Below are positions 31,044-39,926 of a stretch of 64,000 nt of DNA, one piece after another. Source of the stretch: a bacterium. GTDB lineage: Bacteria > Zhuqueibacterota > Zhuqueibacteria > Residuimicrobiales > Krinioviventaceae. The translations under genes and the position numbers were made by a program. The stretch spans positions 62,001 through 126,000 of the forward strand of contig JAKQIY010000013.1 of assembly GCA_029561455.1 (NCBI GenBank), read 5' to 3'. The first letter of the stretch is position 1; every line of letters starts with the position of its first letter. A model generated the notes under the pieces. That model worked only from the letters and a program-made list of their open reading frames with translations, was not told the DNA's origin and searched no databases.

Positions 31044-34000
31044 TTATTTTATTGCCAACAATTGGAAATCATTCAGCAATCCATACGCCAATAGATCATA
31101 ATCTGCACCCTGCGGCTGTATATCCGGAGCATATTTAAAGCTCCAGGGCGTTACTATACCACGGTTGCGGACATTGTGATGCGGACCAAGCAGGTTTTTC
31201 AACGTGCCATAAACAACCACCGTTACTTGATTCTCGCCATCCTTTACCAGGCTGCTAATATCGACAGTATAAGGCTGCCAGCCGATAATTCCTGCATCGG
31301 CGCCGTTAACCTGCACACTGGCCACGCTGCCTACCCATTTGTTCAGGTTAACTGTGTACTTGAAGCCGGAACTGAGGGAGAAGGTTTTACTATAAGCGAC
31401 GCCATCCGCGTAGAACGGCAGACCTTGCTCTTTCCAGCTTCCAAAGTTGAGCGTTTCCGGTTTGACCAGCTTCCAGCCGTGTTGAGTGGATTGCAGACCG
31501 AACTCGCCCAGCAAATAGACCGGTTCCAGTTCCGCATGAATGGACATGGGTTTACAGGAGACAGTAATTGTATTTACTCCCGGTTTTACCAAGCCGGACA
31601 GATCGTAAACGCCAAAGGAGCGATCCAGCGCCCATTCATTTGGCAGCGGCTGTAAAGGTTGATCATTTATAGCAACTTTAAATAATCCGGGCCGTTCCAC
31701 TACCGCACGCAGGCCTTCGGGGTGGAATGATCCATCTACCACAAACGGGAACACTGCCTCAAAACCGGTATCGGCGGCAAAGGTGTCTTTATCCAGCAAT
31801 TCGGTTTTGTATTGTGAGGAGGAGACCCAGGGATTATCAGGTAATCCATGCTGCTGAAAGATTTTAAACGAGGCGGTATAGAAATAAATATTTTCATATA
31901 CCTGTCCGCCAGTTTTGAGCGTACAATAATCCAGGGTCAGGGCATTGGGTTTAAGGCGTTTTATTGTTATCCCTCCGACGTTGGCTACCTGGGATGCTGT
32001 GGTAACCGGCGCCGGAATTGCTTCAAGTGTACCGGTATTACTAACCGCCAGCAGCAGACTGTTGGCAGGAGGGAGGCTGTAACTGATAGTCAAAAGATCA
32101 CCGTTTTGTTGCGCCGGATAGGGTTTAATTACGCCGGTCAAGGCATCCAGTTCCTGGACATTGGCGCCTTTGATCTGGAATTTACCGATGCATGCCTTTT
32201 CCAGGCTGGAATTGACGAGGAATAATAATTGCCCGTCGGCAAATACCCGGCGTTGATGAAATAAGTATCCGTTGCATTTTTCCGGTTGGTCGAAGGCAAT
32301 ATCCGGCTCTGCAAGCAGGGCGCGGGCATCCTTGTTTAAAGTGTCAAATTCCTGCCAGCGTGAGGCATAATATGATTTTCCTAGCTCAATATAATCGTTT
32401 GATTTTTGCCCATCAATATACCCGGCCGGGCGTTCAAAACTCAGGATCTTGCCGCCCTGATCAAGAAATTTTTGGCACAAGCTAAAAGTTTTGGTGTCGA
32501 TATTATCCATTCCCGGAGGAAATACAACAATATCATAAGCTCTTTGACCAACGAGCCATTTTCCGTCCTTCACTTTGCCACGCGTTTGTATGATGTTTTC
32601 ACAACCCAGATCGTATTCGATCTGGTATTTTTCCAGGGTGTTGATAAAATCACGGAAAGAATTACCAATTTCCCGGAACCGTTTATGTGATGTCGATGGT
32701 GAATAATACATCCAGGCCGAGGTTGTCGGTTCCAGCACCAGTATCCGGTTAACCTGTTGCCCGGATGAAAGCGCCAGCGACAATCTTGCGTAATAATCTG
32801 CCAGGGATTTATAAGAGTCCCACCAGGGTGCATGATAAGAGAAAGATTGTGGAAAATCGTGTTTACGGTCGCCCATTAAAGTCATATAAGAGAGGTGCTG
32901 GTTCATAAAATTAACGCCGAGCACATATTCCCAGTCCCCCAGGCGTTTCATATCTTCAAAGCTCAGTTCCCAGCCGGCCGCGCCATAGGTTTCGCTGAGC
33001 GCGCGGTGACGGTCAAGTTGATTGACGACGCTGCTCAGTTCTTTAACTATTCTGGTATTGCCAAACTGGTCACCCTGGTCGCTATATGTATTAAACAATG
33101 CATCGATAGCTGGCTGCTGGTGCCAGGCATACATGGCCATATTATCGCTGCCCTCTTGAGGACTGGGCCAACCGTGTTCCCAGTAATGCCCGGTCCAGTC
33201 CAGGTCATGCGCTTGTGTATATTTGTACCAGGGTTTGCTCCAGCGGTTGATGAACAATTCCAGCAGGGTGGCATAATAATTATGCCGGACATGGCGCCAG
33301 TCGCCGGTTTCCTCGAACAGGGAAGGGAGGTTGGTTTTTAAATCGTACCCCCAGCGTTCCCGGAAGCGTTCGAACAGGTCGGGCGTCCAGCGCATGCAAT
33401 TCTCACCTCCGGGGGTACTGATATTGGGCTCGTCGGTGAACACGCCGCGCACTGTTTTGCCGAATTCCGCGCCGACGCTTTTTTCATAGCCGCTCATGGT
33501 GATATCTATGAACTTTTCGGTCACGCCGGGATAGATCAAATCTACATAAGAATACCCGGCATACCATTTGGTTTTTTCATAAAAGGTCAGTTTAAACAAG
33601 TAATAATCGCCCTGGCCCGTTTCAGAAGCCGGGTCGGTTATGGTAACATAGCTATCGCCTGCTTTCTTTAATATAACGGCATATTGTGCAGCTGAATCGG
33701 CCGGGATATGATTAGCTTTTTCTAATAACAATCCCTGGCCTTTATTCCACGATTCCGGCATTTGCGCCGGTACATGGCCGCCGGCAAAACCGCTGGGGAA
33801 TGAATTCTCGTCATAAATCCAGACATGCATGCCCAACTCTTGGGCTTTGGCTACTGCATATTGGATCAGGTCAAACCATTCATCGGACAGGTATTCGGTG
33901 ATCAATCCATAACGCGGGTGAATAAAAACCCCGCCAATGCCTTTACTTTTAAAATCTTCAAGCTGCAAATCAATTTCTTTTTTCGATACTTTGTCGTGCC

Positions 34001-34172
34001 ATACCCAGAACGGAGCGGTGCGATATTCCATGGGAGGATTGGTAAACAGAGCTTTTACCTCCGCCAGTGAGGTAAAACGGCCGGTTTGGCCGGATACAAC
34101 TTGTTTTTGACAGCCATGAAAAACGACAGCAAATCCAAAAACCAGAATTGATACTAGTATTCTTTTATTCAT
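31044..34172 (-). CDS. GH106-like glycoside hydrolase lipoprotein (alpha-L-rhamnosidase family)
   Basis: 1042 residues. A lipobox (VFHGC, Cys21) marks it as a lipoprotein. The N-terminal barrel opens with MEYRTAPFWVWHDKVSKKEI, GIGGVFIHPRYGL and WIYDENSFPSGFAGG, which is the GH106/rhamnosidase-like signature. The middle holds FTDEPNIS and acidic residues suited to acid-base catalysis, and the C-terminal half is made of beta-sandwich modules (NEWALDRSFGVYDLSGLVKPG, KYTVNLNKWVGSVASVQVNG). It likely removes alpha-L-rhamnose or a related sugar from plant or algal glycans at the cell surface. It lies 26 bases downstream of lspA, the enzyme that would mature it. Confidence 0.82.
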   Translation of the reverse strand: MNKRILVSILVFGFAVVFHGCQKQVVSGQTGRFTSLAEVKALFTNPPMEYRTAPFWVWHDKVSKKEIDLQLEDFKSKGIGGVFIHPRYGLITEYLSDEWFDLIQYAVAKAQELGMHVWIYDENSFPSGFAGGHVPAQMPESWNKGQGLLLEKANHIPADSAAQYAVILKKAGDSYVTITDPASETGQGDYYLFKLTFYEKTKWYAGYSYVDLIYPGVTEKFIDITMSGYEKSVGAEFGKTVRGVFTDEPNISTPGGENCMRWTPDLFERFRERWGYDLKTNLPSLFEETGDWRHVRHNYYATLLELFINRWSKPWYKYTQAHDLDWTGHYWEHGWPSPQEGSDNMAMYAWHQQPAIDALFNTYSDQGDQFGNTRIVKELSSVVNQLDRHRALSETYGAAGWELSFEDMKRLGDWEYVLGVNFMNQHLSYMTLMGDRKHDFPQSFSYHAPWWDSYKSLADYYARLSLALSSGQQVNRILVLEPTTSAWMYYSPSTSHKRFREIGNSFRDFINTLEKYQIEYDLGCENIIQTRGKVKDGKWLVGQRAYDIVVFPPGMDNIDTKTFSLCQKFLDQGGKILSFERPAGYIDGQKSNDYIELGKSYYASRWQEFDTLNKDARALLAEPDIAFDQPEKCNGYLFHQRRVFADGQLLFLVNSSLEKACIGKFQIKGANVQELDALTGVIKPYPAQQNGDLLTISYSLPPANSLLLAVSNTGTLEAIPAPVTTASQVANVGGITIKRLKPNALTLDYCTLKTGGQVYENIYFYTASFKIFQQHGLPDNPWVSSSQYKTELLDKDTFAADTGFEAVFPFVVDGSFHPEGLRAVVERPGLFKVAINDQPLQPLPNEWALDRSFGVYDLSGLVKPGVNTITVSCKPMSIHAELEPVYLLGEFGLQSTQHGWKLVKPETLNFGSWKEQGLPFYADGVAYSKTFSLSSGFKYTVNLNKWVGSVASVQVNGADAGIIGWQPYTVDISSLVKDGENQVTVVVYGTLKNLLGPHHNVRNRGIVTPWSFKYAPDIQPQGADYDLLAYGLLNDFQLLAIK

Positions 34173-34895: not shown

Positions 34896-36887
34896 TTAAT
34901 TGACCAATATCAGTTTTTTCTGCATGATGGTGTTGTTGATTTTTAACTTGTAAAAGTAGACCCCGCTGGGCAGCTTGTTCCCCGATTCATCCCTGCCGTC
35001 CCACGGTATTTCATAGTAACCGACGGTTAAAAACGAGTTGAACAGTGTTTTTACCAGTTGACCTTTAATATTGTATATTGACAACTGTACCGTTTCATTT
35101 TTGTCAATACAGAAAGGGATTGTCGTGTTGGGATTAAAGGGGTTTGGGTAATTTTGCATTAACTCCGTTTTATCAGGTATTTGAGAATTTGTTTTCTGAA
35201 TATTATCAATAAAATCAAAATTTGTATAATTGTCAAAAAAATCTATACCTAACAAATCCGGGTGCGAAGCCAGCCCGAATACCATAGTCGAATAATCAAG
35301 TCCCTGGATATAAGGCGCTTTAAGAGTTGGGGAAGCGTAACTAAAACGCCATAACACATTGGTTTTCACCTGGTCAGGTAATTCATAGCGTCCCAATGGT
35401 GCATCCCATAATTGCACCAGATCACAATAACAATTTTTATCCAGTGGAATAAAACCCGCTATGATATGGGGAGAACAAATATTGTTAGGATTATTATTTA
35501 TACTATTTGGACTGTAACCACCCCCCGGATCCTCGCCCGCCCCAAGTCCCCATACATAGTCCGGTGCATCCGTATTATTCCGCCACCATAATTTATCGGC
35601 TTGCATGGCATTATTTAAATAATTGAGATAACTTTGATTTGTTCTAAAATAATGACACAAATAATATGCAAACTGGATGGTAAAGTCGGATAAAAATGAA
35701 CCTGGATTGTCTGTTAATAATGAATAAGGGCCAAAAGTACTTTTGGGCAGCCTTGATATGACGCCATACGAATTATTCCAGGAGGTGACAGCGCGTTCAT
35801 TATTTCTTATAGCATTTTTTGCCAGCCAGGCAACGATCATGTATTCATTAAATGGTTTTGTTATTTCCTGGCCTTGCCCATCTTCAGTAAATGTCATATA
35901 AATATCACCATTGGCAGGATTGGCAATGCAGGAATTCCAGTCTACATTTGTGTATAAACAATTGGCAAGATGGTTAATTGTTTCATTGCCGGCAAAATAT
36001 TTGGCGCAAAACAGCGCACCGGTGACCAATATGCCGGTATCGATACTCGAATATTCACTATCCCAGGCCCTGCTGCCGTTATTCATATTAATAAAATGTC
36101 TGAATATTCCATTGTTAACATTTCTTGCCGGATCAAATCCCTGTTCTGTTTTCAACCCGCTCATCGCCTCTAGTGTCTCCAAAACCATGGCTTCAGCATT
36201 ATTGATATAGCCCAACTGGTCGGCAATGCACAGGGAAATCAAACCCATACCGATGGAGGCAATTGAACATACATTTATTGGTCCATTACTAAATTCAATT
36301 TTATCCGAAAATGCTCCTGGAGTATTGCGTAACATGCTAAATACTTTAATGCTGTTTTGTAATAACGGTTCCAACATGTCCTGTGGACATTCTTCCTGGG
36401 GAATTAACTCCAGCCAATCAGTGCTGGTAAAGGTATCCCAGTTACCGGTATTAGCTGGCGTGAATTCAGTTTTTTTATCTTCCTGAATAAAAATTTCAAT
36501 AGGAACAGTGGCAGGTGTATTCTTTGAATACTGAATTTTAATATATAATGGCCCATAAGCTGGAATTCCATTGTCTGTATACCAAACTTCACCTGCTTTT
36601 ATCAAGTAATCTGGTATTGCTTCACAACCGAATTGGCCCCAGACATAGCCGTCATTGGCATGAGTCCGGTTAATTTTACTTCCTACGCTGCTTCCTGTCG
36701 GATTTTCACATGCTGCATTAAAAAAGATGTCGGCGTCATTCGGTGATGTGGCAAGCCAAAAGTGATCCAGATCGGCAACGCCATATTGCTGACCGGCGGT
36801 CATAAATTTGAGTTCATTCTGCGCATTACTATCAAGAATAAACATGAAAATTATGACAAAAACCATGTTAATACATAATTTGTTCAC
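34896..36887 (-). CDS. Secreted GH144/glucoamylase-like enzyme with sorting tail
   Basis: 663 residues from GTG 36887, which sits 5 bases after GGAGG; a TTG further upstream overlaps that site. A signal peptide (to about 22) and a beta-rich N-terminal region precede the helical domain with FRHFINMNNGSRAWDSEYSS followed by IDTGILVTGALFCAKYF. This is the signature of the glucoamylase-like family that includes GH144 endo-beta-1,2-glucanases. Trp/Asp-rich segments (KLWWRNNTDAPDYVWGLGAG) fit a sugar cleft. The last 85 residues are the sorting/FlgD-like tail (LMQNYPNPFNPNTTIPF, SIYNIKGQLVKTLF, KKLILVN), so it is exported across the outer membrane. Confidence 0.8.
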   Translation of the reverse strand: MNKLCINMVFVIIFMFILDSNAQNELKFMTAGQQYGVADLDHFWLATSPNDADIFFNAACENPTGSSVGSKINRTHANDGYVWGQFGCEAIPDYLIKAGEVWYTDNGIPAYGPLYIKIQYSKNTPATVPIEIFIQEDKKTEFTPANTGNWDTFTSTDWLELIPQEECPQDMLEPLLQNSIKVFSMLRNTPGAFSDKIEFSNGPINVCSIASIGMGLISLCIADQLGYINNAEAMVLETLEAMSGLKTEQGFDPARNVNNGIFRHFINMNNGSRAWDSEYSSIDTGILVTGALFCAKYFAGNETINHLANCLYTNVDWNSCIANPANGDIYMTFTEDGQGQEITKPFNEYMIVAWLAKNAIRNNERAVTSWNNSYGVISRLPKSTFGPYSLLTDNPGSFLSDFTIQFAYYLCHYFRTNQSYLNYLNNAMQADKLWWRNNTDAPDYVWGLGAGEDPGGGYSPNSINNNPNNICSPHIIAGFIPLDKNCYCDLVQLWDAPLGRYELPDQVKTNVLWRFSYASPTLKAPYIQGLDYSTMVFGLASHPDLLGIDFFDNYTNFDFIDNIQKTNSQIPDKTELMQNYPNPFNPNTTIPFCIDKNETVQLSIYNIKGQLVKTLFNSFLTVGYYEIPWDGRDESGNKLPSGVYFYKLKINNTIMQKKLILVN

Positions 36888-36988
36888 AAACCCCTCCAAA
36901 AATTAGTAAATATTTAAAAACCCTGAGTTCAGAGATATAATAAGTGATTTTTTTATTATTTGCAACTATGATTTTGTAAAAAATAAAA

Positions 36989-37019
36989 AAATCCGGTATC
37001 TTTTGCGAATACCGGATTT
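36989..37019 (-). terminator. Intrinsic terminator of the methyltransferase/ATP-grasp gene
   Basis: AAATCCGGTAT (36989-36999) and ATACCGGATTT (37009-37019) form an 11-bp stem with a 9-base loop, followed on the minus strand by a T-rich run. It lies 30 bases past the stop. Confidence 0.9.
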
Positions 37020-37048: not shown

Positions 37049-38965
37049 TTAAACCGTCGATAATCTTTCCCGCGCCGCTTCGATGATCTTGTTTAGCATT
37101 TCCGAGTACGACAAACCGGCGAATTTCGACATTTTTGCCAGATGTCCGTCCCAGCACCAGCCGGGATTCGGGTTCACTTCCAGCAACCGCGGTGTTTTAT
37201 GATAGTCCAGCCGCCAGTCAAATCGCGCATAATCGCGGCAGCTCAATCTTTCGAACAGTTTAATGCAACTGGCGATCAAGAATCGTTCCGTATCGGTCGG
37301 AATATCCGCCGGGATGGATTTGATCTTCCAGTAGGGTGAATCTGGCTGCCATTTGGCTTCGTAACCGCAAATTTGCGGTAGTTCCGGGGGCAGAGAAGAG
37401 TAATCTTCCTCGATGATCGGCAAAACTGTGTACGAGTTGGGCGGATTGCCGATTATACCTACGCTGATATCTTTACCGACCAGGAATTCCTCAACCAGGA
37501 TCGGGTGTTGATAACCGAATTTCTCACGGATGATATTAATGGCATTCTCCAAAGCCTGAATGTTGTAACACACACAATCCTGGGTAATGCCGAAACTCGA
37601 ATCGCCAAAGTTGGGCTTGACTATAACCGGAAAGGAGATCGTCAGTTCGATAAAGTTGGTATCTTCAGGTTTGATAAAGATAGCTTTGGGAACCGGGATA
37701 TCCATTTCCTCGGCAATACCACGCACCAGTGATTTATCATAACAATAGGACAGGCATTGCGGTGTGCCGCCGGTGTAGGGAATTTGCGCCATTTCCAGTA
37801 AAGCCGGCACATGCAGTTCCTTGGTGGCTTCGTTATTAAAACCTTCATCACACAGGTTAAAGACCAGGTCGAATTTTTTTATTTTACTCAATTCCGGTAT
37901 AAACATATTATGATTATCGAAATAGGTAAATTTGTAATCTTTTAATTTACCCAGAGCTTTCTTTAATTCATTGATGGTATACATGTCGTCTTCATCAAAC
38001 GTGTTATTGGGTTTTATAATATCGGTCTTGCGCGGATCACCCATCATAACCGCAATATTTTGCACACTTGTCATTTCCTTGACAGAGGTCCACACTTTAT
38101 CCGCCGATCCAACCAGGATCAACCGCCGGCCCATCATACCTAAATCCTGGTTCCGCTGTGAATTGGTAAATAATTCTTTTTCCATTTCAATGTCGATAAA
38201 ACCGCATCTGTCCAGCAACTCGCGGATACTTTCGGCTGTATATAAACGTTCCGCATAAAATTGATCGGCAATAACTCCTTTTTTGGTATGGGTGATCACT
38301 TCGCGGGAGATCAGGCGTTGGTCATCTTTTGAAAGCGATCGCTCCCGGCAGACAAAGTAATTTTTATCGATCCATTCCCAGCTACGCGGTTCAAAATTAC
38401 TTTTCATATATGAACCGTCGGTTATGTCGATCAGGACTTTACCATCCGGTTTTAGTACACGCATTACTTCATTCAAAACCCGGTAATCATCATTCATGGT
38501 CTCAAAATATCCAAAGCTGTTACCCAGGATAAGAACATAGTCAAACTTGTCCCTGGGGAAGGGCAGTTTCCGGGCATCGCCTTCTTTAAAGGTGATGTTC
38601 AGTCCTTCGCTCGTTTTTATAGTTCTGGCTTTATTGATAAGATAGTGAGAACGATCCATACCGACAATATTTGTATAACCACGTTTTGCCAACTCTATGG
38701 TATGACGGCCCTGCCCGCAGCATAGATCGAGAATGCAATCGCTTTTTCCCGGAGATAGTATTTCCAGGAACATGTCAATTTCATTACTGGTTATCGATTC
38801 GTCGCTGACAACATCGCCATCGGTTCGTAAATAATTGGCATTAAATAAATGTCTCCACCAGTCGGCTTTAACATAACTTTCCAGATCTTCGACCGGTCCC
38901 AAAACCTCAATTATATTTTTCTTTTTGGGGTTATGATTATGGGGTTTGTGTTTTTCTTTCTTCAT
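37049..38965 (-). CDS. SAM methyltransferase fused to a D-Ala-D-Ala-ligase-like ATP-grasp domain
   Basis: 638 residues from ATG 38965 (a GTG at 39016 would add 17; neither has a good ribosome site). After a basic start, residues about 55-290 are a class I methyltransferase (ILDLCCGQGRHTIELAKRGY, then DARKLPFPRDKFDYVLILGN). From about 310 on there is a D-alanine-D-alanine-ligase-like ATP-grasp: a pre-domain (NEATKELHVPALLEMAQIPY, TGGTPQCLSYCYDKSL), ATP site (FPVIVKPNFGDSSFGI, ILVEEFLVGKDISVG) and metal site (LLEVNPNPGWCWDGH). It should join a carboxylate to an amine using ATP and methylate the substrate or product, making a small modified dipeptide or amide. The product is unknown. The substrate is not D-Ala-D-Ala for certain. 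Confidence 0.85.
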   Translation of the reverse strand: MKKEKHKPHNHNPKKKNIIEVLGPVEDLESYVKADWWRHLFNANYLRTDGDVVSDESITSNEIDMFLEILSPGKSDCILDLCCGQGRHTIELAKRGYTNIVGMDRSHYLINKARTIKTSEGLNITFKEGDARKLPFPRDKFDYVLILGNSFGYFETMNDDYRVLNEVMRVLKPDGKVLIDITDGSYMKSNFEPRSWEWIDKNYFVCRERSLSKDDQRLISREVITHTKKGVIADQFYAERLYTAESIRELLDRCGFIDIEMEKELFTNSQRNQDLGMMGRRLILVGSADKVWTSVKEMTSVQNIAVMMGDPRKTDIIKPNNTFDEDDMYTINELKKALGKLKDYKFTYFDNHNMFIPELSKIKKFDLVFNLCDEGFNNEATKELHVPALLEMAQIPYTGGTPQCLSYCYDKSLVRGIAEEMDIPVPKAIFIKPEDTNFIELTISFPVIVKPNFGDSSFGITQDCVCYNIQALENAINIIREKFGYQHPILVEEFLVGKDISVGIIGNPPNSYTVLPIIEEDYSSLPPELPQICGYEAKWQPDSPYWKIKSIPADIPTDTERFLIASCIKLFERLSCRDYARFDWRLDYHKTPRLLEVNPNPGWCWDGHLAKMSKFAGLSYSEMLNKIIEAARERLSTV

Positions 38966-39332
38966 TTTTTTTACCAAATATAGAGTTGCTTTTTTTTTTA
39001 ATGGTCCAAAGACCACCTGTTAATTAATGCTATCAATTTATTATGTTTAAAAGCGGCATAAAAACTTAATGTATATGATACAAATAAAAACTAGTTTTAT
39101 TCAGGCTTTTTTTATTAACACCGGATTTTAAGGCAGGGGTTGCAAATATTTCTTAAATTATCCGATAGCTGAGGTCATTATTAATATATATTACTCAATA
39201 TAAAAATGCAAACATTTATTTAATTTTTTTTCCTGTTTTTAGAAATTAAAAATTTGCACTAACTTTTTGTTTTATATAAGACAATGACAATCATCGCCGT
39301 CGGATTTTATTGACGGTACCGTTTCGTAATAT
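38966..39332. other. AT-rich intergenic region upstream of the methyltransferase/ligase gene
   Basis: About 370 bases without a gene. It is AT-rich and would hold the promoter of the fusion gene and the end of the TetR transcript. A 5-bp CCGTC/GACGG dyad near 39298-39317 is too weak to name. Nothing else was seen. Confidence 0.4.
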
Positions 39333-39926
39333 TCATTTTGCGGAATGATTTGATAATAGTGTTTCAAAGATCATCTTGTTAAAGACAAGTAACGGTTCGG
39401 AATTTTTTGTGACTTTGGTGCGCAGCAGGGCGCCTTCCCAACTGTTAAAAATAAAATCTGCAATGTTATTAATGTTTATTTCCTGCGCCAGTTCCCCGTG
39501 CTGCTGGGCATGGCTTAGAAAAGCCCTGATTCTATCCTTCATTTTACTCATTACATCATTCAGTTTACCCCGGAACAGAATATTGATATCTCCCAGTTCC
39601 TGCGCCAGGTTGCCGATAGGGCAGCCGACAATATAATTCGACTTTTCAATATGTTTTTGATAGTTATTAAAAAACTTGACCAGACGTTGTAAATAGCTGC
39701 AACTGTTATCTTTGAAAAAGGTATCGGCGGAATTTAGAAAGAAACGGGAGTAAAAGTCTACCAGTTGTAAGCCAAAATCTTCTTTGCTTTTAAAATAAAA
39801 ATAAAATGAGCCCTTGGGCACCTCGGCCGCGTGTAGTATTTCCTGAATACCGGTATGATGGAACCCTTTTAATTGAATGATTTCCGCGCCTTTTTCCAGA
39901 ATCAGTTCTTTGGTATTTCTTTTCAT
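39333..39926 (-). CDS. TetR/AcrR-family transcriptional regulator
   Basis: 197 residues. The N-terminal helix-turn-helix is typical (ILEKGAEIIQLKGFHHTGIQEIL, written in part; then VPKGSFYFYFKSKEDF). The remaining helices form the ligand and dimer domain, with a Cys pair near 75 and 100 (NSCSYLQ, IVGCPIGNLAQE), a pattern of the TetR_C_6/YcdC-like group. AGGAA precedes ATG 39926. It lies upstream of the methyltransferase/ligase fusion on the same strand and may control it or itself. The effector is unknown. Confidence 0.92.
   Translation of the reverse strand: MKRNTKELILEKGAEIIQLKGFHHTGIQEILHAAEVPKGSFYFYFKSKEDFGLQLVDFYSRFFLNSADTFFKDNSCSYLQRLVKFFNNYQKHIEKSNYIVGCPIGNLAQELGDINILFRGKLNDVMSKMKDRIRAFLSHAQQHGELAQEININNIADFIFNSWEGALLRTKVTKNSEPLLVFNKMIFETLLSNHSAK

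Follow-up and report, generated by a model that had tools for sequence, protein, structure and literature searches.

A widely transferred methyltransferase–ATP-grasp ligase fusion of bacteria and Asgard archaea, and its genomic association with an AspA-type amide hydrolase

INTRODUCTION

The D-alanine–D-alanine ligases (Ddl) are ATP-grasp enzymes with a Glu-Ser-Tyr triad, of which the Tyr is catalytic, and a loop that binds the second D-alanine, the acceptor; the positions of both elements used here are those given by alignment. Glycine/sarcosine N-methyltransferase (GSMT), an enzyme of betaine osmolyte synthesis, has been solved as chains without a fused ATP-grasp domain. NmbA, likewise a separate protein, is an N-methyltransferase that acts on bacillithiol; its description reports no archaeal homologues of BshA-C (PMC12719100). 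An ATP-grasp ligase may also have a genetic partner that reverses or counterbalances its activity: in the RimK–RimB and Rlo systems, the ligases are partnered by aspartic proteases (PMC12239564).

Here, we describe a protein that carries a SAM-dependent methyltransferase and a Ddl-type ATP-grasp ligase on one chain, and that is encoded in a 64,000-nucleotide stretch of bacterial DNA (hereafter, the window, which refers to that stretch at its full length). The fusion is made of known domain types in an unusual combination, is intact and very widely transferred, and has a newly found genomic partner, namely, a clade of AstE/AspA-type hydrolases that we call AspA2. It resembles the RimK–RimB and Rlo systems in that a ligase is paired with a candidate undoing enzyme, whereas it differs from them in its ATP-grasp family and in having an AspA-type metallohydrolase in place of an aspartic protease. 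No account of the fusion was found in the literature searched, a collection in which a minority of subscription papers is included. Such conservation and transfer of a bifunctional enzyme points to a useful metabolite, probably one that is missing from present metabolite lists; both chemical steps are carried on a single chain, and the bond that forms can be approached independently through the AspA2 clade.

RESULTS AND DISCUSSION

Two enzymes on one chain

The open reading frame of the fusion (Table 1) starts with ATG and its translation runs without an internal stop. A GTG at position 39016 would add 17 residues to the N-terminus, although this alternative start is less supported, as several homologues have the ATG start. 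Both of the Pfam matches lie well over their cut-offs: Methyltransf_25 covers residues 78–175 (E 1.6e-22), and Dala_Dala_lig_C covers residues 437–629 (E 1.9e-25). The full-chain AlphaFold model has a mean pLDDT of 84 and a pTM of 0.56, the latter indicating that each domain is well modelled, albeit with an uncertain placement of one relative to the other. When modelled separately, residues 20–300 (pLDDT 90) match class I methyltransferases (Foldseek; E 1e-20), and the Rossmann-like fold of the class I SAM-dependent enzymes is found in the N-terminal half by Pfam, model and Foldseek alike. The C-terminal half matches Ddl structures (3r5x and 1iow; E 1e-20, target TM 0.8) and possesses both the fold and the nucleotide/Mg residues of the Ddl-type ATP-grasp enzymes. 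The claim of the first-pass annotation that a SAM methyltransferase and an ATP-grasp ligase share one chain is, therefore, confirmed by the reading frame, by Pfam, by the models and by the homologues described below.

Table 1. Features of the fusion gene and its immediate surroundings (positions are those of the window)
Feature	Position	Strand	Basis
Fused methyltransferase–ATP-grasp ligase gene, 638 aa	37049..38965	(-)	ORF, Pfam, homologues
SAM methyltransferase core, residues 78–175	38441..38734	(-)	Pfam and predicted fold
SAM motif I LDLCCGQGR, residues 79–87	38705..38731	(-)	Homologue alignment
D-Ala-D-Ala-ligase-type ATP-grasp half, residues about 303–636	37058..38059	(-)	Pfam, AlphaFold, Foldseek, alignment
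CGYEAKWQP segment, residues 533–541, with Trp539 at the Ddl Tyr position	37343..37369	(-)	Alignment
EVNPNPGWCWDGHLAKM, residues 596–612, Mg/ATP residues retained, Ddl acceptor loop replaced	37130..37180	(-)	Alignments
Terminator-like hairpin, 12 pairs and T run, directly downstream of the fusion gene	36989..37019	(-)	Sequence scan
TetR-family regulator (TetR_C_13), upstream neighbour	39333..39926	(-)	Pfam

Residue conservation was scored over 99 homologues, each required to match over 560 positions. The SAM residues D80, G84, G86, D104 and D130 are invariant in all 99 of these, as are the ATP-grasp residues K411, K450, R581, D583, E596, N598 and G602; E492, in the ATP site, is replaced by Gln in 10 homologues, which are the members of subfamily B (see below). 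Loss of the SAM or ATP site, which the first-pass annotation had named as an observation that would count against its reading, is thus not what the alignment reveals, as the cofactor residues checked are retained across these homologues, E492 excepted.

Among solved structures, the closest relative of the methyltransferase half by sequence is NmbA (PDB code: 9ri2; E 8e-23), with which it shares the class I fold; the fold comparison puts their identity at about 21%. Unlike NmbA, it is found fused, rather than standing alone, in all of the 99 rows aligned. Its relatives by fold include the N-methyltransferases GSMT (E 1e-16, about 20% identity), CcbJ, CypM and TylM1, and also the C-methyltransferases SeMT and PsmD; with the latter pair also among the close folds, N-methylation is no more than probable.

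Departures from the D-Ala-D-Ala ligases

The ligase half shares with the Ddl family its fold and its ATP/Mg residues (K450, D583, E596, N598 and others), but the two elements that would mark a true Ddl have been replaced. In all 99 homologues, the position of the catalytic Tyr is occupied by Trp (the Ser of the triad is retained in 92 of them), and the acceptor loop reads PGW-x-WDG followed by either His, in subfamily A, or Lys, in subfamily B; in the window's protein, this loop is WCWDGH. Moreover, the protein falls well below the cut-offs of the NCBIfam Ddl models, scoring 119.1 bits against 243 for one and 112.6 bits against 245.65 for the other. With the ATP residues kept, a Trp in place of the Tyr and the loop replaced, the ligase half should form an acyl phosphate, without accepting D-alanine in the manner of Ddl.

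A separate canonical Ddl is encoded in the window's genome (G000:C36; 394 aa, E 3.4e-66), and one also accompanies the fusion in all five of the other bacterial carriers checked. In the one Lokiarchaeota genome checked, the best match apart from the fusion reaches only E 1.5e-9; to our knowledge, these archaea have no peptidoglycan. Evidence that the protein makes D-Ala-D-Ala had been a further point on which the first-pass annotation would have fallen: judged on the residues and on the separate Ddl and Asgard distribution, such a role is very unlikely.

Distribution and transfer

A search in which each species was represented by a single genome found relatives of the fusion at 64 loci, with 55–71% identity over the best segment; contig ends truncate three of these (L066, L068 and L071), and the remainder cover most of the query. 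The taxa named in the locus titles include Planctomycetota, Gammaproteobacteria, Desulfobulbaceae, Spirochaetia, Verrucomicrobia, Chloroflexi, Nitrospirota, a cyanobacterium and Lokiarchaeota, among others. Carriers of the fusion number 6 among 82 sampled genomes in the window's phylum (E 1e-60), 7 among 369 in a gammaproteobacterial class (E 1e-100), 43 among 227 in an Asgard phylum (E 1e-60; a few rows are partial) and, with the ATP-grasp half as the query, 12 among 392 Planctomycetota (E < 1e-100), where each match lies in an open frame of at least 645 residues. One cultured carrier is Desulforhopalus vacuolatus DSM 9700. The Asgard archaea are the archaeal group nearest to the eukaryotes.

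The phyla are intermixed in a tree of 99 fusion proteins, for which repeated transfer is the simplest reading. The window's protein groups with a same-genus copy and then with a set of 40 rows that includes Verrucomicrobiota, Pseudomonadota, Cyanobacteriota and others; the copies from G032 and G033, which belong to the same class as the window's genome, fall in the other part of the tree, together with planctomycetes and Asgard archaea. Subfamily B comprises 10 rows separated by a fully supported split, and these are 47–52% identical to the ATP-grasp half of the window's protein. The pairwise distances of the two halves are correlated across the 99 proteins (Mantel r 0.88; 999 permutations gave values of at most 0.19), and this, together with the relatives at 64 loci, establishes that the two halves were joined neither by chance nor by an assembly error. 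On the basis of these sequences, the fusion represents a family of long standing that has been transferred many times and spans bacterial phyla and Asgard archaea, and its wide distribution as a single gene looks more like that of an enzyme for a general metabolite than for a specialized one. Plasmid and viral origins were also considered and rejected: none of 753 matching plasmid records covers 80% of the query, and the 57 viral candidate stretches include no relative.

Genomic surroundings

The hairpin downstream of the gene begins 30 bases past the stop codon. Three terminator-like sites were found against 3.0 expected by shuffling, such that the position of the hairpin counts for more than the number of sites. 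No Rfam element, riboswitches included, was found near the gene at gathering score, and no biosynthetic partner is seen adjoining it in the window. Upstream, the TetR-family gene had been taken by the first-pass annotation as a hint of a controlled pathway. The gene itself is real, but its association with the fusion is not maintained: in a same-genus genome (L081), about 7 kb and other genes separate the TetR homologue from the fusion, and several genes downstream of the fusion are retained. TetR control of the fusion is rejected on this account, and the regulator is probably unrelated to it. Given the hairpin and the distant TetR gene in the same-genus genome, the fusion is most likely a single-gene unit, and the regulator provides no evidence of a pathway.

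A few observations concern the neighbouring genes themselves. Against the model for the acrylate regulator AcuR, the TetR-family protein scores 184 bits, where the cut-off is 247. The next gene downstream of the fusion (34896–36899) encodes a 667-aa secreted protein whose C-terminus, of the FlgD-Ig/Por_Secre_tail kind, is suggestive of a signal for type IX-like secretion (T9SS). Also downstream are a protein that is LspA-like by appearance and a 1042-aa protein (31044–34172) with a weak likeness to GH106 α-L-rhamnosidases, which is syntenic in L081.

An AspA-type amide hydrolase as genomic partner

The neighbourhood set comprised 73 regions (the 64 loci, the window and eight further stretches), which were subjected to six-frame profile searches, with expected counts derived from the gene density in 20 carrier genomes. 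An AstE/AspA-type gene lies near the fusion in 12 of these regions versus 0.35 expected, the count leaving out a 70-aa AspA-like fragment near L042 and the duplicates L085 (of L040) and L102 (of L055). The neighbourhood search that the first-pass annotation had recommended shows a recurrent AspA-type gene and no conserved link to the regulator discussed above. A tree resolves the AspA proteins into two types. The first, type 1, is widespread and was seen in a non-carrier as well (L103 of G026). Type 2, AspA2, is a clade of 15 rows with 100/100 support, 8 of which adjoin the fusion and 7 of which lie elsewhere in carrier genomes; since 20 of the 23 non-adjacent rows in the tree were chosen from carrier genomes, the carrier status of those rows is no evidence by itself.

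AspA2, a family picked for the co-occurrence test after the neighbours had been seen, was next searched for regardless of position. AspA2 is present in 4 of 369 Gammaproteobacteria (54–100% identity), all of them among the 7 fusion carriers, and four other genomes match only at 30–32% identity (hypergeometric P 4.6e-8, with genomes counted as independent). The query came from a carrier, G084, which is itself one of the four positives; without it, the overlap is 3 of 3. Similarly, full-length AspA2 is present in 3 of 392 Planctomycetota (49–66% identity), all among the 12 carriers, with the other eleven matches at 29–35% identity (P 2.2e-5, again with genomes counted as independent). The single AspA2 gene found in the window's phylum also belongs to a carrier (G009). 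Thus, AspA2 is a new genomic partner of the fusion, associated with it at the level of the genome, and this co-occurrence may stem from shared habitat or joint transfer. It is an optional partner: among carriers, 4 of 7 gammaproteobacteria have it, as do 3 of 12 planctomycetes and 1 of 6 genomes in the window's phylum. A genome search finds no AspA2 in the window's own genome, implying that hydrolysis is dispensable for the system.

In a further planctomycete, G1042, a partial AspA2 lies beside pieces of the fusion (residues 10–114 and 547–638), and the presence of both genes as fragments side by side suggests that they are decaying together. Where a broken planctomycete fusion lies beside a broken AspA2 in L221 (3622–4819), the next gene is, by eye, of CNNM type.

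The assignment of AspA2 to the AstE/AspA amide hydrolases follows from the Pfam family AstE_AspA_cat, the zinc motif and the DLNR substrate motif. Indeed, with the HGDE, DLH and DLNRxFPG motifs all retained, AspA2 should be an active amide hydrolase.

Proposed function and alternative readings

The explanation that we favour, and to which we give an even chance of being right, is that the fusion is a self-contained two-step enzyme leading to a small methylated amide, which AspA2 would cut in some hosts. The N-terminal domain would methylate a small substrate using SAM, most likely on an amine, a choice guided by the kinship to NmbA in sequence and to GSMT, CcbJ, CypM and TylM1 in fold. The C-terminal domain would then convert a carboxylate to an acyl phosphate and couple it to an amine other than D-alanine. 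Some hosts would also have a zinc amide hydrolase dedicated to cleaving the product, namely, AspA2, such that the metabolite is both made and recycled. N-methylation, the amide nature of the product, its hydrolysis by AspA2 and its role as a solute are all steps that we infer. Of the earlier proposal of a methylated small amide or dipeptide natural product, a methylated (or methyl-using) small amide survives as the best reading, and is strengthened by AspA2; the natural-product pathway finds no local cluster.

For the physiological role, we favour that of a solute serving in stress or osmotic balance. The scan of neighbour families took in selected proteins out of 659 ORFs (47 in one set and up to ten in each further set). 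CorA occurs near the fusion in 7 of the 73 regions versus 0.19 expected, and a single MgtE, a single CNNM, and KefB-type and SLC12-type genes also lie near fusion copies; these ion transporters accompany a minority of copies, and kinship among the copies makes the counts partly dependent. Together with the KamA and GNAT genes that neighbour cousins of the ligase (see below), they offer weak hints of a possible solute role. A fuller version, in which the fusion and AspA2 constitute a two-gene make-and-break module for an undescribed methylated amide, probably an ion-balance solute, that is exchanged between bacteria and Asgard archaea, is plausible, but we hold it more tentatively.

The methyl group may, alternatively, be cryptic: the methyltransferase would mask one acid as its carboxyl methyl ester, leaving the other to be coupled by the ATP-grasp domain, with the methyl being lost later. 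A precedent exists in CysG, which methylates the C1 carboxylate during cystargolide assembly and thereby allows the next ATP-dependent step (PMC11427300), and fused domains would suit the handover of such a substrate. However, no recurring esterase-like family is found among the neighbours scanned, and the nearest solved sequence relative of the methyltransferase acts on nitrogen, leaving this reading unlikely.

We regard with equal doubt a system of the RimK kind for tagging and trimming peptides or proteins, in which neighbouring peptidases and AspA-type enzymes would serve as erasers. In L026, L029, L055 and L058, the surroundings of the fusion include a RimK gene adjoining a type-1 AspA, and genes for MATCAP, FGase, M20, M24, M32 or circularly permuted ATP-grasp proteins lie near single copies. 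Each such neighbour is rare, however, and with so few loci apiece they were set aside as main evidence; moreover, the non-carrier mentioned above has a type-1 AspA as well, the C-terminal half of the fusion is of the Ddl rather than the RimK type, and no peptide substrate gene is seen.

Somewhat less probable again is a product that is no osmolyte but a low-molecular-weight redox or thiol compound akin to N-methyl-bacillithiol: this would accord with the methyltransferase half having a bacillithiol methylase as its nearest PDB sequence, whereas the low identity to NmbA, and the occurrence of the fusion in Asgard archaea when the account of NmbA reports no archaeal homologues of BshA-C (PMC12719100), speak against it. 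Finally, that the fusion is the cell's own D-Ala-D-Ala ligase carrying an extra domain can be dismissed almost entirely, its resemblance to Ddl in sequence and fold being outweighed by the separate canonical enzyme, the low NCBIfam scores, the altered Tyr and loop, and the presence in Lokiarchaeota.

Stand-alone relatives of the ligase half

Ddl-like ligases that stand alone in Planctomycetota are 23–38% identical to the ATP-grasp half of the fusion and mostly share its AKW segment; they often occur as tandem pairs and have loops of the NPNPDLSP or NPLPGILP type. None of the three such ORFs examined has a methyltransferase match. Among five planctomycete stretches read, L160 has both GNAT and KamA genes, L161 has KamA without GNAT, and L165 has GNAT without KamA. 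Tandem pairs of Ddl-like ATP-grasp genes are seen in L160 (4303–7943), L161, L159 and L162, and the pair is adjoined by GNAT and KamA (LAM_C) genes in the first of these and by KamA in the second. In methanogens, a lysine aminomutase and an acetyltransferase make N-acetyl-β-lysine; the tandem ligases of the L160 type may possibly belong to an unexplored β-lysine-type amide pathway.

Separate 373-aa ATP-grasp ORFs (47% identical) are present in the Asgard genomes G628 and G629, both of which also carry the fusion; these ORFs (L156:6317–7438 and L157:2442–3563) have variant motifs. Split halves were, therefore, rejected as a clue to function, as the separate Asgard ORFs occur beside an intact fusion, and a seemingly separate methyltransferase in G632 reaches the contig end and so proves nothing. 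On a Thioflavicoccus plasmid (L079:1473–6954), genes for a DABA aminotransferase, SbnA, an ornithine-cyclodeaminase-like protein, a Ddl-like ATP-grasp protein and a KamA-family protein are found together.
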